Below are positions 587-10,658 of a stretch of 12,905 bases of DNA, piece by piece. The stretch is taken from positions 1 through 12,905 of the forward strand of contig JAISYW010000044.1 in the NCBI GenBank assembly GCA_031269645.1, in the 5' to 3' direction. Position numbers and translations under genes: made by a program. This DNA comes from Holosporaceae bacterium (GTDB lineage Bacteria; Pseudomonadota; Alphaproteobacteria; UBA3830). Within the stretch, counting starts at the first letter, position 1. The number at the start of each line of letters is the position of its first letter. The notes under the pieces were generated by a model. The model did no database searches, was not told where the DNA came from, and saw only the letters and a list, made by a program, of their open reading frames with translations.

Positions 587-1417
587 ATGAAAAAGACTGT
601 TTTTTCGATGATATGTTCGGCTACGTTGCTTGCGGCAGGCGCAATGGCCGACGATAATGCTAATCCTGCAGCAGACAATAATGCTGAATCTGCTGCGGCA
701 AACGAAAATGCCGTCATCGGCAGACAAAGCCAGGTATGTGGAGGTTGTTCTTTTTATCTTGGCCTTGGTGGACATGCTGCCAACCTCGGCGAACGAACGG
801 ATTTTAAATATAAAGATAGTTTTACGTATTCCGCAAGTAACGACAAAAAAACCGTTTTGGGAGGTTCTCTTGTTCTCGGCCTTAGCAAAAAGATAAATAA
901 TCTTTTTTGTGTTAGCTTAGAAGCGGGAGCTGATTTTTCGCCTAATGTAGAGAATACACATCAGGATAGACTTGCTATGGATGATACTGCTAGTAGATAT
1001 TATGATTTGGAAGCGAGACACAATGGATCAAGGCCGTTTGGAGCAATGAGGATTGGGGCCTTTGTTGATCAATATGTTTTGGTATATCTGAAGGCCGGCG
1101 CGTCTTATGGGTCGTCTGCAATTAAATATTCGGAGTACGCCCAGAATGCAGGAGGAGGAGGAGGAGGAGGAGGACGTTTGTCATATACTAGTAATGCAAA
1201 ACTGTCTGCTGTACAGCCAGATTTCGGCATTGGTGTAGAAAGCAGCCTTAGCGGCAAACTAAGTTGCCGAGTGGAAGCTTGCTATAGGTTGCCCAAAAGT
1301 AAGGATTGTAATGTCATCAAACAATCTACCGGAGACTTGGGCGATACTGTAAAACTTCATCAGAAAGATACTGTTACTTTCAGAATACTGTTTTGTTATA
1401 ACATGAAGTTGTCTTGA
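587..1417 (+). CDS. Exported, probable outer-membrane beta-barrel protein, cysteine-containing
   Basis: This 276-residue protein is not assigned to a named family. The start is ATG 587 because GGAGG (574-578) sits 8 bases upstream and the product begins with a classic signal peptide: MKK, a hydrophobic core, and a likely cut after AGAMA at residue 21. A low-complexity stretch rich in Ala, Asn and Asp follows (22-42), then a CGGC motif (51-54). Alternating strands typical of small outer-membrane barrels come next, for example FYLGLGGHAA (56-65), VLGGSLVLGLS (90-100), GAMRIGAFV and VYLKAGASYG (152-175), PDFGIGVESS (211-220), LSCRVEACYRL and TFRILFCYNM at the end. Residues 189-196 are eight glycines. 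The mature part has seven cysteines, unusual for a barrel. The last residue is Ser, not the usual aromatic. It is likely a surface antigen-like porin or adhesin, but its function is unknown. Confidence 0.75.
   Translation: MKKTVFSMICSATLLAAGAMADDNANPAADNNAESAAANENAVIGRQSQVCGGCSFYLGLGGHAANLGERTDFKYKDSFTYSASNDKKTVLGGSLVLGLSKKINNLFCVSLEAGADFSPNVENTHQDRLAMDDTASRYYDLEARHNGSRPFGAMRIGAFVDQYVLVYLKAGASYGSSAIKYSEYAQNAGGGGGGGGRLSYTSNAKLSAVQPDFGIGVESSLSGKLSCRVEACYRLPKSKDCNVIKQSTGDLGDTVKLHQKDTVTFRILFCYNMKLS
1151..1174 (+). repeat. (GGA)8 trinucleotide tract inside the outer-membrane-like gene
   Basis: Eight perfect GGA codons in a row encode Gly189-Gly196 of the gene at 587-1417, between two predicted strands, so most likely in a loop. 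Because the unit is three bases, gain or loss of copies would change loop length without breaking the frame. Each copy pair also resembles a Shine-Dalgarno sequence. Confidence 0.9.
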
Positions 1418-1547
1418 TACTCGCTTTTTAACTTGATCTTCTTGTGATGATTTTTGTTCTTCATCATTATGGTTGTATGCCAAAAAATTGGTTGTTTTTG
1501 GTTTGTGTTAGAAAGTATGCTACGCCGTTGTTAGTGAAGCGATAAAA

Positions 1548-2780
1548 ATGGATAACTCCGAAGTGCTGGACGACGATACTCGTAAGGTTTCTAAAATCCT
1601 TGTGATAGACGATCAAGAAAGCGCTCGCGCTCTCCTAAAACGTCGATTGTCCATATATGGTTATGAAGTGTTGGCTGCCGCCAATTGGGAGCAGGCTACG
1701 GAAATGCTTTCCCAAAACTCTATGGACGTTGTATTTTTAAATATGTTCATTGGCGGAGTAAGCAGCTATGAATTTCTCACAAATCTAAAAGAAAACGAAA
1801 ATTACAAAAGTATACCGGTAATAATGATTTCAAGCGATAGCGATATCGAGTTGATCGTTCGGTGCATCGAAGCCGGAGCGGAGGATTATTTAACTAAACC
1901 GCTAAATCAAACGCTACTTAAGGCAAGATTATCCAACTGCGTTGCTAAAAAAGAAGCCTACGACAAAGAAATCGCATATCTTGCCAAAATCGAACAAGGA
2001 CAAAAACAAATCGTTGCCCAAGAAAAAATGGCGTCGTTGGGCGTTTTGGTTAATTCCATTTCTCAGGAGCTCAAAAATCCACTGAATTTTGTCATAAATT
2101 TTGCAGAAGTCAGCGCTGAAGTATGCGAAGAATTGACAAAGAAAATTGAATCGGACAAAAACGGGATTTCTGCAGACTTTTATGCTTTTTTATCAGATCA
2201 ATTGGGAAAATTTCGATCTAATGTATCCAAAATCTCGGAATACGGCAAAAATGCCGATAAAATCATTAGATTTATGTTGGATCAATCAAACACTTCCGCT
2301 GGACAAAAATCTCCCGGCAACATAAATAAAATAATTTCCCAAACCATTACTATGCTACTAGCGACTTATAAAACAAATGGAATAACAAAGTTACCGACAA
2401 TAGATACCGTTTTAGACGGTGCAATTCCTCATATTCCAATATCAATCCAATCTTTTAGCAAAGCGATCTACAACATACTTGATAATGCTGTGTTTTCGGT
2501 AATTAATAAATTTGAGGACATTTCGACGGGCAAAGTTATCGTGAAAACAGAAAATACGCCGGAAACAGTGGAAATATCAATCTATGATAATGGTAGCGGC
2601 ATAAAAGACGAAATTAAAAGCAAAATTTTTAATCCATTCTTCACTACCAAAACGGAAGGAACAGGACCGGGATTGGGATTATCCAGCGCAAGCGAAATAA
2701 TATCTGAACATAACGGCTCAATTACTGTGGAATCTACGGCGGGAGAATATGCCGAATTTGTCGTTTCGGTAAAAAAATAA
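1548..2780 (+). CDS. Receiver plus histidine-kinase-like protein lacking both phospho-acceptor residues
   Basis: This 410-residue cytoplasmic protein has no membrane segments. Residues 16-130 form a response-regulator receiver: KILVIDD holds the acidic pair D21/D22, SS at 95-96 gives the conserved hydroxyl, and LTKP gives K117. The phospho-acceptor position reads VVFLNMF, so Asp is replaced by Asn65 (codon aat, 1740-1742). A coiled-coil linker follows (about 134-160), then a HisKA-like segment MASLG...SQELKNPLNF. There the H-box His is replaced by Gln173 (codon cag, 2064-2066). The HATPase domain looks intact, with the N box around N309-N313, DNGSGI (347-352), FNPFFTTK (361-368) and GPGLGLS (373-379). 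In the family, cytoplasmic kinases with HEINNPLNF autophosphorylate on that His. Here neither domain can carry phosphate in the usual way, so it is probably an ATP-binding pseudokinase or scaffold. Only a weak ribosome site precedes ATG 1548, and it appears monocistronic. Confidence 0.88.
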   Translation: MDNSEVLDDDTRKVSKILVIDDQESARALLKRRLSIYGYEVLAAANWEQATEMLSQNSMDVVFLNMFIGGVSSYEFLTNLKENENYKSIPVIMISSDSDIELIVRCIEAGAEDYLTKPLNQTLLKARLSNCVAKKEAYDKEIAYLAKIEQGQKQIVAQEKMASLGVLVNSISQELKNPLNFVINFAEVSAEVCEELTKKIESDKNGISADFYAFLSDQLGKFRSNVSKISEYGKNADKIIRFMLDQSNTSAGQKSPGNINKIISQTITMLLATYKTNGITKLPTIDTVLDGAIPHIPISIQSFSKAIYNILDNAVFSVINKFEDISTGKVIVKTENTPETVEISIYDNGSGIKDEIKSKIFNPFFTTKTEGTGPGLGLSSASEIISEHNGSITVESTAGEYAEFVVSVKK

Positions 2781-2847: not shown

Positions 2848-2922
2848 CAATAACAATTGCGAATTAACTTTTTTTTAATAGTGGACGAGGTAGGATTCAT
2901 CATATATTTGGAGGGAACAACA

Positions 2923-3615
2923 ATGAGAAAATTGATAATGGGCACCGCCGTCGTCACTATATTTGCTGTAGGGATTACTGATGTAGAAGCTATTAAAACC
3001 CGTCTCGGTTACGACAATAAGAAAACGGTGGAAGAATTTAACATGTACTTCAATGGCTATGGCATTGCTGGTGAAGGAGGAGTTGCCGATCGAGCGATGG
3101 TATTTTGCAACGCGCTTAAGAAAAACATGGAAAATCAGAAAAAACAATGTAAGAATCAACCTGTACTAGTGAATGCCATAAAAAAAATTATCGAAACTAC
3201 AAAGAATGCGGTGTTAGCGTTTGAGTCCATTAAAAGACAGAGGAAAAAGGAAGATATAATACCGGAAAGTAAAAAAGCTTTGGAAATTGCTGAACTGGTT
3301 CATGTATTTCAAACGTATGGATTAGATTTGCAACACTTAGCTGCGTTCGCTGAGTTTGCTAATATAGGCATTCCGCAAGCTACTTACGAGTACGAACATG
3401 ATACTGTCCACGCTGTAGTCGCATTATTGGAGGCTTTAAAAAGGCTCGGAATTGAAGTGCAAACGTTTATTGTGGCGCAACAGCAAGCTATGTTACCGCA
3501 GCAAACAACGTTTACTGCGCCGGTAATAATTCCTACACCAATAATACCTACGCCAGCGCCAGCTCCTGTAGTGGAGCCAGCAAGAAGCGTCTCCCCTGTA
3601 CAAGGTAGGCAGTAG
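2923..3615 (+). CDS. Small exported protein with proline-rich C-terminal tail, function unknown
   Basis: I do not recognise this 230-residue protein. ATG 2923 is chosen because GGAGGG (2910-2915) lies 7 bases upstream and the product then opens with a clear signal peptide: MRK, a hydrophobic stretch over residues 4-18, and a likely cut after VEA at residue 23. The mature part is mostly predicted helix and rich in Lys, Glu and Gln. It has two cysteines (C62 and C76) that could form a disulfide, a helical stretch around HAVVALLEALKRLGIEVQTF, and a Gln-rich QQQAMLPQQ. The last 35 residues form a proline-rich tail with repeated IIPTP units. There is no lipobox and no C-terminal membrane anchor, so it should be periplasmic or secreted. 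A host-interaction or envelope role is possible but unsupported. It may be a lineage-specific gene. Confidence 0.75.
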   Translation: MRKLIMGTAVVTIFAVGITDVEAIKTRLGYDNKKTVEEFNMYFNGYGIAGEGGVADRAMVFCNALKKNMENQKKQCKNQPVLVNAIKKIIETTKNAVLAFESIKRQRKKEDIIPESKKALEIAELVHVFQTYGLDLQHLAAFAEFANIGIPQATYEYEHDTVHAVVALLEALKRLGIEVQTFIVAQQQAMLPQQTTFTAPVIIPTPIIPTPAPAPVVEPARSVSPVQGRQ

Positions 3616-5906: not shown

Positions 5907-6923
5907 TTGAAGTGCATCGTCGGTTTATCAGGAGGAGTCGATAGCTCGACTTCAGCCGCCATAATGAAGGAAAAAGGGGTTGAAGTAATCGGATGTACAT
6001 TTAAAATGATGGAATCGAAAAATACGGCTTCCGCCATTCAGGATGCGCAGAAAGTAGCCGATTTTTTAAAAATAAATCATATTGTCATCGATTGCGTCAA
6101 GGATTTTAAAAATTATGTAATCGACTATTTCATCGATTCCTATAAAAAAGGAATAACTCCTAATCCATGCGTTATGTGCAATAAATTTATTAAGTTCAAA
6201 CATCTAGAAAATGTTAGACTACAGCAAAATGCGGATTTGATCGTTACTGGTCATTACGCGAACCTGAAAAAGAAAAATGATAGAGTCGAATTGATGCAGG
6301 CCGTCGATTTAAGTAGAGATCAAAGTTATTTTCTTTACAGAATTGATGCGGAAATTTTACGGCACGTGAAATTTCCACTAGGGGACAATTCAAAAACTTA
6401 TACCAGAGAATTAGCTAGAAAATTTGGAATTCATGTCGCGGAAAAATCGGATAGTCAAGACGTTTGCTTTATTCCAAATGGAGATTATGTAGGCTTTATC
6501 CAAAATCGTTCGTCCGAACTTACTGAAAGCGGAGACATAGTAAATGAAAAAGGAGAAATACTAGGCAAACATGACGGTATCGTTAATTATACGGTAGGGC
6601 AGCGTAAGGGATTAGGATTGGCAGGCGGTCCATTTTTTGTGTCAGCTCTGGATGCGCAAAAAAATAGAGTAATTGTATCCAACAAAAGCGGAATTGGAAA
6701 AAAACAAATCTTACTGCGAGACGTAGTTTTCATTAACGAGCCGTATTTAGGAAGTTGCGAAGTAAAAATCAGATCAACCACCCAAAAAATTTCGGCAGAA
6801 ATCATTCAAAATTCGGGCAATTATTTTGTAGAGTTGTTCCAATCAGAATATGGAATAGCGCCGGGACAACACTGCGTTTTTTACATAGAAAACATCGTCT
6901 TGGGCGGAGGCGTTATTTGCTGA
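5907..6923 (+). CDS. mnmA: tRNA-specific 2-thiouridylase MnmA
   Basis: MnmA thiolates U34 at the wobble position of tRNA-Lys, -Glu and -Gln. It activates the base with ATP and takes sulfur from an IscS/Tus-type relay or directly from a cysteine desulfurase. The PP-loop SGGVDSS lies near the N-terminus, and the catalytic cysteines are present in NPCVMC (first Cys = residue 88) and SQDVCFI (residue 187). The family motifs TGHYAN, QSYFLYR, YTVGQRKGLG and the closing IAPGQHCVFY and VLGGG are all visible. At 338 residues it is slightly short for the family. I chose TTG 5907 because GGAG (5897-5900) lies six bases upstream, giving MKCIVGLSGG. An in-frame TTG at 5895 would add four residues, and a stop at 5892 blocks further extension. 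The 3' end overlaps the convergent FlbD-like gene by 43 bases. Confidence 0.95.
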   Translation: MKCIVGLSGGVDSSTSAAIMKEKGVEVIGCTFKMMESKNTASAIQDAQKVADFLKINHIVIDCVKDFKNYVIDYFIDSYKKGITPNPCVMCNKFIKFKHLENVRLQQNADLIVTGHYANLKKKNDRVELMQAVDLSRDQSYFLYRIDAEILRHVKFPLGDNSKTYTRELARKFGIHVAEKSDSQDVCFIPNGDYVGFIQNRSSELTESGDIVNEKGEILGKHDGIVNYTVGQRKGLGLAGGPFFVSALDAQKNRVIVSNKSGIGKKQILLRDVVFINEPYLGSCEVKIRSTTQKISAEIIQNSGNYFVELFQSEYGIAPGQHCVFYIENIVLGGGVIC

Positions 6924-7960
6924 CGACGGGAAAATACATCTGCAAAAATAGCTGCGTCTATTGTCTTGTCAGAAGAAAGCAAAACTGTTCTGTGTACTAG
7001 GTTTTCTAATTCGCGGATATTACCTTTCCATCTGTAATTTCCTAGAGATTTTAAAAAACAATCAGATAAAGTTTTTTTATTATCTGAATATTTTCGGCAA
7101 AAGAAAATAGCAAGTGGCTCTATATCCAAGGGTCTTTCATTTAATTTTGGCACTTCAATTGGAATCACATTTAATCTATAAAAAAGATCTTCCCGAAAAA
7201 CGCCGTCCGATATTGCTTGATATAGATTTTTATTGCTGGTAGCAATGATTCGCGTATTTATTTTTATATCGACGCCGCCTAAGCGAGTGATTTCCTTTTC
7301 TTGTATCACCCTTAATAACTTTGCCTGCAAATGCATCGGCATTTCGCTTATTTCGTCTAGCAAAATTGTTCCATGACTGGCTTCTTCAAATTTTCCAATC
7401 CGTTTTTGGATAGCATGCGTAAATGATCCCTTTTCGTGCCCAAATAGTTCTGATTCCAGTAAAGTTTCTGGTATGGCGGCACAGTTAATAGCTACATATT
7501 TTTGATCAAATCTGTCGCTTTTTTGATGAATATACTTTGCTAACATTTCTTTCCCAGTGCCAGTTTCTCCAGTAATAAGAACTGTGGCATCAGATTTGGC
7601 GATTTTTTCTGCAATTTGAAAAATCTCTTTAGTAGCAGGATCTACAATAATTGGATCGGAGTTTTTGGATTTATTTTGTATTATTTTTTCTATAGCTTGT
7701 ATCGAAGATAAACTAAGCGTCATTTCGTTTTTTAGCGAAGGAGAATAATTAACAGAGCTAACGACAGAAATCACAGTATTATCTATATGCTTTGGAAGTT
7801 GGTCAATTAGAGAGCTATCTATTACGATTACGTCGTCGTAGTTAATTTTTACCTTTATATTTTTTTTAAAAAAGACCGTGTCGCAATTCATTTGTTTCGA
7901 TATTTTTACGATTTCGAATAAATGATTTTCAAGCCTTTCTCCGATAACAAGAATTTTCAT
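6881..7960 (-). CDS. FlbD-like sigma-54 enhancer-binding AAA+ protein lacking the DNA-binding domain
   Basis: In Caulobacter, FlbD activates late flagellar genes with sigma-54. This 359-residue protein resembles it in its degenerate N-terminal receiver (1-100: MKILVIG, then DDVIVIDSS, with no usable Asp/Lys set) and its central AAA+ domain (about 103-330). The AAA+ part has Walker A GETGTGKE (131-138), ESELFGHEKG, the FlbD-like RIGKFEEA, Walker B TILLDEISEM (198-207), FREDLFYRLNV (255-265) and WKGNIRELEN (311-320). Two things are odd. The sigma-54-contacting GAFTGA loop reads GSFTHA (178-183). The protein also stops 30 residues after the AAA+ domain, with no Fis-type helix-turn-helix, where the family usually has one. 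Its last residues (PPPKTMFSM) are encoded antisense to mnmA. ATG 7960 has an AGGGA site six bases upstream on its strand. No flagellar genes flank it. It may be a remnant or act without direct DNA binding. Confidence 0.85.
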   Translation of the reverse strand: MKILVIGERLENHLFEIVKISKQMNCDTVFFKKNIKVKINYDDVIVIDSSLIDQLPKHIDNTVISVVSSVNYSPSLKNEMTLSLSSIQAIEKIIQNKSKNSDPIIVDPATKEIFQIAEKIAKSDATVLITGETGTGKEMLAKYIHQKSDRFDQKYVAINCAAIPETLLESELFGHEKGSFTHAIQKRIGKFEEASHGTILLDEISEMPMHLQAKLLRVIQEKEITRLGGVDIKINTRIIATSNKNLYQAISDGVFREDLFYRLNVIPIEVPKLNERPLDIEPLAIFFCRKYSDNKKTLSDCFLKSLGNYRWKGNIRELENLVHRTVLLSSDKTIDAAIFADVFSRRQQITPPPKTMFSM

Positions 7961-9917: not shown

Positions 9918-10658
9918 ATGATAAATAAAATAAGATTACAACCGCTAGTAAAATTGAGCGATAATTCCATATACGGTTATGAAGCTCTTTACAAAAAAGA
10001 GCCGTCAGCAGAGTATCCGAGCGCGTCAAAAATACTAAATAGTATACTTTGTAATCACAAGGATAAAAGTACCTGCAAATGTCATAATTTTAAATTATTT
10101 ATCAACTTAACAGTTCAAGATATTGAAGACGCGTCGTTCGGCGATTCTTTTTTAAAGGTTATTAGCGATGACGGAATCATAAATGAAAATAATATTGTTG
10201 TGGAGATAAATGAAAATACATCCCCGGGCGCGCTATTTCAGGCAAAAGAAACGATAAACATATTGCGCGACTATGGCATAAAAATTGCGCTGGATGATTT
10301 CGGAAGCCAAGATTCTTGTTTATCATTTATGGGAGAATTACCTATAGATATAGTTAAAATAGATAAAAAATTTATCCAATCAGCACCGTTAAATAAAAAA
10401 GCTCAAGAAATATTAATGTTTATAATACAGGTTTCACATGATATAGGATGTGAAGTTGTCGTTGAAGGTATAGAAAATACCGACCAACTCGCTTGTGCGG
10501 AAGAATTTAGAGCAGATATTGGGCAAGGTTTTTTGTTTGCTCCGCAGCTTCCAAGTTTTAATCAGACAAGCTTTATCAAGCAAACTACGCCATTTATAAA
10601 TTTACGAGAGTTCGATTTATATATTTCCAAACACTTGCCTTCCCTATCCATAGCGTAA
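9918..10658 (+). CDS. Stand-alone EAL-domain protein, probable c-di-GMP phosphodiesterase
   Basis: EAL domains hydrolyse cyclic di-GMP to linear pGpG using two metal ions. This 246-residue protein is essentially a single EAL domain, with no GGDEF, PAS or membrane segment. The key residues are present: E22 in YGYEALYK, N63 in FINLT, E96 in VEINE, D126/D127 in ALDDFGS, K147 in VKID, E183 and E186 in VEGIE, and Q203 in GQGFLF. The Arg that usually follows EAL (EALxR) is Lys26. Catalysis is therefore plausible. A small Cys/His cluster (C45, H47, C53, C55, H56) just before the N63 strand is not typical and could bind metal or sense redox state. GGGAT (9906-9910) seven bases upstream may serve as the ribosome site. 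No diguanylate cyclase is in the window. It could modulate motility or host-associated surface behaviour, which is inference. Confidence 0.88.
   Translation: MINKIRLQPLVKLSDNSIYGYEALYKKEPSAEYPSASKILNSILCNHKDKSTCKCHNFKLFINLTVQDIEDASFGDSFLKVISDDGIINENNIVVEINENTSPGALFQAKETINILRDYGIKIALDDFGSQDSCLSFMGELPIDIVKIDKKFIQSAPLNKKAQEILMFIIQVSHDIGCEVVVEGIENTDQLACAEEFRADIGQGFLFAPQLPSFNQTSFIKQTTPFINLREFDLYISKHLPSLSIA

Follow-up and report, generated by a model that had tools for sequence, protein, structure and literature searches.

A receiver-histidine kinase protein without either phospho-acceptor residue is conserved across a bacterial family and mostly encoded beside a TPR-cyclase

Results

Gene and domain layout of HKp

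The window, a DNA stretch of 12,905 nucleotides, makes up one contig of an assembly of 711 kb in 134 contigs that is 59% complete. At 1548..2780 on its plus strand lies an open frame without stops that encodes HKp, a 410-aa protein of the domain order REC-DHp-CA, which we read as phospho-dead. The receiver domain (PF00072, residues 17-128, 84.6 bits) occupies 1596..1931 (+), and the HATPase_c (CA) domain with its N, G1, F and G2 boxes (residues 305-409, 66.4 bits) occupies 2460..2774 (+). Response_reg, HATPase_c and HATPase_c_5 were the only Pfam families over cut-off; HisKA (PF00512) scored 19.3 bits, under its gathering cut-off of 26.9 bits. At the position of the phospho-acceptor Asp the codon is AAT (Asn65, 1740..1742, +), and at that of the phospho-acceptor His it is CAG (Gln173, 2064..2066, +), which confirmed the codons and coordinates of the original prediction. 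The residues it had named as kept (D21, D22, S95, S96, K117 and the N, G1, F and G2 boxes) are likewise all present in the window protein.

In the structural model (mean pLDDT 80.5, pTM 0.46, 33 sequences), residues 121-202 form a single helix in which receiver α5 continues into DHp helix 1, the stretch of residues 121-155 being encoded at 1908..2012 (+); block pLDDT was low across residues 111-170 (56-73), and 59-73 within the stretch 121-155. The best PDB match by sequence was LvrB (8vc9, E 5.2e-22, residues 86-407), which has the same order of REC, signalling helix, DHp and CA. LvrB chains also took the first six Foldseek places (about 409 columns, best E 6.3e-21), with an LvrB-to-HKp TM-score of 0.33-0.34 that denotes a weak overall superposition. 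Pfam, the model and 8vc9 all place in HKp a REC-DHp-CA order with the receiver helix entering the signalling helix. The LvrB-type traits absent from HKp are a phosphorylatable receiver Asp and a phosphorylatable DHp His (33/33 aligned rows of the window's family).

Both acceptor residues are missing throughout the family

The order was represented by 49 genomes: 40 from the window's family (f1), 3 from f2, 5 from f3 and 1 from f4. Relatives of HKp at E ≤ 1e-40 were found in 35 of them (32/40 f1 and 3/5 f3; 0/3 f2 and 0/1 f4). The alignment held 37 rows, comprising 33 from 32 f1 genomes, 3 from f3 and one distant f4 homologue. Two of the f1 rows come from G052, an assembly with 7% contamination. 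L036-L040 were counted as duplicates of G046, G014, G020, G023 and G047 and excluded from the 33 rows; L041, which represents G048, ends at about residue 269; L125 was swapped for L207, the same gene in G054; and L123, whose frame is open far upstream, was cut back to an inner Met.

Results showed that residue 65 is Asn in 33/33 f1 rows and that residue 173 is never His (27 Q, 5 N and 1 R). The window gene is therefore no lone exception, and a sequencing error is very unlikely because the same pattern is fixed in 32 genomes. Asp21, Ser95, Glu174 and Asn177 were found in all 33 rows, Ser96 in 29, Lys117 in 28 (Arg in the other 5) and Asp22 in 27 (replaced in 6). Among the 32 f1 rows that span the ATP-binding boxes, N313, D347, G349, G351, G375 and G377 are invariant and N309 is kept in 31; G373 of the G2 box is kept in only 23, with 7 of the 9 replacements being N. 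The claim that exactly two residues had been lost proved too strong. Three further residues that all 3 f3 rows share, Pro at D+4, Gly at D+8 and Ala at T+1, are gone from all 33 f1 rows, and these changes are counted as typical of pseudo-receivers in PMC12632262.

In the f3 orthologues, residue 65 is Asp in 3/3, and residue 173 is His in two and Gln in one. The two His-bearing proteins scored 27.0 and 28.6 bits against HisKA and the Gln-bearing one 22.3 bits. The latter (L028, genome G031), with its receiver Asp retained and Gln at the His position, represents a half-lost state, which indicates that the His was lost at least once with the Asp still present. Cys131 (1938..1940, +) and Cys193 (2124..2126, +) are Cys in 33/33 f1 rows and at the aligned places of the f4 homologue, and in f3 they are Ser and Ala, respectively (3/3 each). 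Cys at 131 also occurs in L042, an outside homologue bearing both D and H.

The f4 genome encodes a 377-aa protein (L201, 8539-9672, minus strand) head to head with the cyclase and at 23-25% identity. By alignment it carries Asn65, Met117, Asn173, Asp177 and Gln178; Pfam found HATPase but not the receiver, so these assignments rest on a low-identity alignment. In the HKp tree the f4 row sits on a very long branch, nine of the ten intended outgroups having been left out for frame breaks, and the cyclase tree grouped f4 weakly with f2 and f3. A search of 289 genomes of the class with an f3 protein gave matches in 21 of them at E ≤ 1e-35; outside the order, the matches listed cover the kinase or the receiver half only.

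HKp has a PF00072 match without the key active-site Asp, as a pseudo-receiver is defined, and a kinase-like core in which Q, N or R replaces the phospho-acceptor His, as a pseudo-histidine kinase is defined. On this residue pattern, its standing as a pseudo-enzyme is strongly supported. According to the figures given in PMC12632262, the Asp is missing from 2.0% of PF00072 domains and the His from 0.9% of HisKA domains; both losses in one protein would come to about 0.02% if independent (the product of the two).

HKp is under purifying selection

Substitution rates place HKp under purifying selection in f1. Whole-gene dN/dS (NG86) was 0.021-0.075 in the 11 of the 12 closest pairs that were computable, that of the ATPase domain 0.031-0.103 in 10 of the 12, and that of the DHp part 0.006-0.058 in 9 pairs. 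These values are rough, though far from neutral, because several dS exceed 1 and the pairs come from genera g3 and g4 only, the window gene and its genus being in none. The original prediction had argued for selection rather than decay; dN/dS far below 1, the HATPase domain included, together with losses fixed in 32 genomes, bears this out. The lowest-entropy 16-mer of the whole protein is residues 170-185 (2055..2102, +), i.e., the H-box minus its His. Mean entropy was 0.54 in the linker (residues 131-155) and 0.52 in DHp helix 1, as against 0.97 in the receiver and 1.14 in the CA domain.

HKp is mostly encoded head to head with a TPR-cyclase

Synteny of the window is mostly unconserved. When its 15 genes were compared with 19 regions of relatives, 9 had no reported match; HKp was matched in 19/19 regions, the EAL gene and mutL in 3 each, and accB, accC and the outer-membrane gene in 1 each. 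In 14 of the 19 regions, HKp stands head to head with a gene for a protein of about 690-780 aa. This partner has weak TPR and TPR-S matches and a class III cyclase domain (PF00211) over cut-off. The TPR-cyclase was found in 40/49 genomes of the order, and it is the sole PF00211 match in each of 12/13 genomes, the thirteenth (G007) having none.

Among the 32 f1 genomes having both genes, HKp and the cyclase are divergent neighbours in 25. One of these, G053, counts through an HKp truncated by the end of its contig, which is not among the 33 alignment rows. The genes are unlinked in six (G000, the window genome, and G006, G017, G041, G047 and G048), and in G023 linkage is ambiguous, since each lies at a contig end. 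Of the other f1 genomes, six have neither gene, G054 has HKp alone, and G002 has the cyclase alone, at a contig end. Fisher's test for co-occurrence gave 1.2e-5 over the 40 genomes and 0.004 over the 19 that are at least 90% complete, values that overstate the link, since neighbours are lost together with one contig and joint absence is partly an artefact. The 96% complete G007 is without HKp and cyclase; it has genes that we read as valS and truA on one contig, with a different gene in the cyclase's place. In several members of the genus these two come after the cyclase, but in G012, also of this genus, valS is likewise unlinked to it.

In 2/3 f2 genomes the cyclase was found but HKp was not, and in f3 the two genes are on different contigs in 3/3 genomes with both. 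Paired f1 and f4 versions lack D and H, and the Asp-keeping f3 versions are unlinked, so the paired versions are the phospho-dead ones. Across 101 loci of histidine kinase relatives, the cyclase was near in one, that of the f4 genome (L034). The partner resembles TPR class III cyclases (TPR/PF20308 with PF00211) and has homologues in other alphaproteobacteria; unlike f1, none of 17 such cyclase regions outside the order showed an HKp-like neighbour, two of them (L236 and L249) ending near the cyclase. A plasmid search with the cyclase returned 12 records, none with 80% query coverage. As far as gene order and co-occurrence can indicate it, a link between HKp and the cyclase is supported.

In the window itself, an outer-membrane β-barrel gene (620..1417, +; a weak OMP_b-brl match under cut-off) stands in the cyclase's usual place. 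Homologues of this gene lie directly behind the cyclase in L143 (12961-13698) and L145, which suggests that here the cyclase moved out from between the outer-membrane gene and HKp.

Across 23 aligned cyclases of the order, both metal-binding Asp and the active-site Asn and Arg are kept, and Asn sits at the adenine-Lys place. The cyclic-nucleotide-binding domain PF00027 had no match in 13/13 genomes of the order at E ≤ 0.001, and the control for this search gave matches in 10/14 named genomes. With one cyclase in 12/13 genomes and PF00027 in 0/13, the search gave no receptor of this known type. The cyclase product may be read by another kind of receptor, act outside the cell, or have HKp itself as its receptor.

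A candidate promoter site accompanies the paired genes

The pattern TTAA-N6-GTAAA, with six variable spacer bases, occurs 76-131 bp upstream of the HKp start in 22/36 regions (L017 is without upstream sequence). Dinucleotide shuffles gave an expectation of 0.27, which is no blind test, since the pattern was chosen after 14 of those regions had been viewed; it replaced an earlier exact pattern, TTAA-N7-TTAA, present in 6/14 upstream regions. All 22 regions belong to adjacent pairs, of which 24 have a complete upstream sequence. The two exceptions, in G004 and G016, and the remaining 12 regions are without it. In the unlinked genomes the site was not found before HKp, window positions 1400-1547 included. 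A reverse site was found before the cyclase in exact form in G006 and G041 (a script match) and in G000 (read by eye); in G017 and G047 a site read by eye differs at one base, and G048 showed none. The pattern resembles the CtrA motif TTAA-N7-TTAAC as given in PMC7200025 and, judged by its letters, is a candidate site.

Discussion

The phosphate carriers of HKp are gone, yet the gene is kept under selection and mostly lies beside a cyclase, so HKp is probably a shape-changing switch and not a kinase. With moderate confidence we propose that it is a phosphorylation-independent, nucleotide-bound switch or docking platform of the LvrB type that is coupled to the TPR-cyclase. HKp would be an old, selectively maintained pseudo-enzyme derived from a Rec-controlled histidine kinase of LvrB architecture, with neither the receiver Asp position nor the DHp His position able to take phosphate. 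As a nucleotide-bound dimer it would act as a conformational switch or as a docking platform. Its pseudo-receiver would respond to a phosphate-independent input such as a partner protein, a small ligand or redox state; this input would alter the signalling helix as well as the receiver dimer and thereby switch the DHp/CA core to another state, and a partner may dock on the conserved H-box face of that core. The likeliest functional partner would be the cyclase encoded alongside in most relatives. The sequences themselves show the fixed loss of both acceptors, purifying selection, largely retained ATP-site residues, and the gene pair with its promoter site; we infer that HKp binds ATP and dimerises, which way the signal runs, and any physical or regulatory tie with the cyclase. 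The "ATP-binding, non-phosphorylating switch or scaffold" of the original prediction agrees with the data, ATP binding and absence of autophosphorylation being predicted from conserved and lost residues.

LvrB provides the mechanical precedent. As described in PMC13269768, receiver phosphorylation in LvrB leads to a coiled coil of the signalling helix and frees the CA domains; LvrB is activated by this phosphorylation and phosphorylates its own His, whereas the HKp family is without both acceptors. The f1 family retains the lever parts of LvrB minus the phosphate chemistry. Two Caulobacter proteins resemble HKp in other respects. DivL is likewise His-less, keeps a conserved patch close to the lost residue and has H, N, G1, F and G2 boxes, and the account in PMC4211667 makes it a precedent for partner docking by a His-less kinase core. 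It differs in having PAS input domains, where HKp has a pseudo-receiver (no PAS over cut-off), and in having Tyr at the His position (Ala in one species), where the HKp family has Q, N or R. ShkA, as reported in PMC7010744, has a pseudo-receiver within a histidine kinase, with c-di-GMP replacing phosphate as input; it still autophosphorylates, an activity predicted to be lost in HKp, and it carries a second receiver. Known controls of pseudo-receivers include ligand binding and Cys-based dimerisation, and PMC12632262, which describes these, calls the activation mechanisms of bacterial pseudo-receivers still a mystery.

The pairing with the cyclase could also reflect a shared promoter or chance synteny, with HKp serving another pathway such as CckA-ChpT-CtrA in the manner of DivL. 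Six f1 genomes keep both genes after losing linkage, and once the genes separate the TTAA-N6-GTAAA site remains with the cyclase. Its likeness to the CtrA motif in PMC7200025 would also suit such a pathway, and ChpT-like matches (E ≤ 0.001) occur in 9/13 genomes, eight of them over cut-off and the ninth, a 580-aa frame in G025, doubtful. Nevertheless, the genes stand head to head in 25/32 f1 genomes and also in the distant f4 genome, both are absent from 6/40, and it is the Asp-keeping f3 versions that are unlinked; we regard this explanation as rather unlikely.

HKp could alternatively be an obligate phosphatase, dead as a kinase, whose DHp domain dephosphorylates a response regulator through the Asn at His+4. 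The conserved N177 (33/33 f1 rows) supplies the HisKA phosphatase trait of Asn or Thr four residues past the His, and further receiver-domain proteins exist in genomes of the order. In CrdS, according to PMC3510030, the equivalent Asn375 is needed for phosphatase activity only, and the H371A change lowers that activity only modestly. However, E174 is just as invariant, and its CrdS equivalent is described in the same source as serving kinase, not phosphatase, activity. His-bearing homologues, too, have E174 without exception and N177 almost always, so neither residue points specifically to a phosphatase, and the f4 homologue carries Asp177 and Gln178. Moreover, a His mutant of PleC is described as having lost both kinase and phosphatase activities, and PMC4211667 describes DivL as having neither. 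A pure phosphatase is conceivable because Asn177 is fixed, but Glu174 is equally fixed, and we hold this reading to be unlikely.

More speculatively still, HKp and the cyclase could make up a self-contained module that has given up phosphate relay: its pseudo-receiver would sense the cyclic nucleotide made by the cyclase, or a redox state through the fixed Cys131 and Cys193, and the ATP-bound DHp/CA core would pass the signal on. The absence of PF00027 noted above would be compatible with this reading, which we consider doubtful; if true, a former two-component kinase would have turned into a receptor for a nucleotide or for redox state.

A half-kinase, whose CA domain would act in trans on the phospho-acceptor His of a second kinase within a mixed dimer, would explain why most CA motif residues are retained, and other HATPase-domain proteins over cut-off are present; with G373 replaced in 9/32 f1 rows (7 by N) and no heterodimer partner identified, it is very unlikely. 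Decay towards loss in a shrinking genome, which the small genomes of the order (0.5-1.6 Mb), the 8/40 f1 genomes without a match at E ≤ 1e-40 (one of them with a contig-end partial copy) and the long branch of G012 might suggest, is hardly credible and was rejected as the main account, given N65 and non-His173 fixed in 32 genomes, the low dN/dS in close pairs (0.021-0.075) and the freedom of all listed HKp copies from internal stops.

Pseudo-kinases and pseudo-receivers are already known; here both acceptors are gone from one protein, family-wide. Among the best matches in open-licence PubMed Central literature, no paper dealt with such an HKp-cyclase pair. The second-messenger enzyme linked to HKp supplies an output that can be measured, which makes the function of a two-component core without phosphate directly testable, and the two of three f3 orthologues that keep both acceptors serve as cousins for comparison.

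Other genes of the window

PADLOC gave weak matches only. The gene at 2923-3615 (+) codes for about 230 aa, and the start of the protein suggests that it may be secreted; it had no NCBIfam match, none in the 19 regions of relatives, and, as the longer frame 2857-3615, none in Pfam at E ≤ 0.001. A stand-alone EAL-domain protein is encoded at 9918-10658 (+), with homologues in L131, L136 and L137; its homologue lies directly behind HKp and convergent to it in G001, and about 6 kb beyond HKp in G021 and G015. The frame at 6881-7960 (-) encodes a 359-aa FlbD-like sigma-54 activator (NCBIfam FlbD 343 bits, under the cut-off of 750). Pfam at E ≤ 0.001 gave neither a receiver nor a helix-turn-helix match in it, and it is thus a second regulator in the window that is missing the usual phospho-input.
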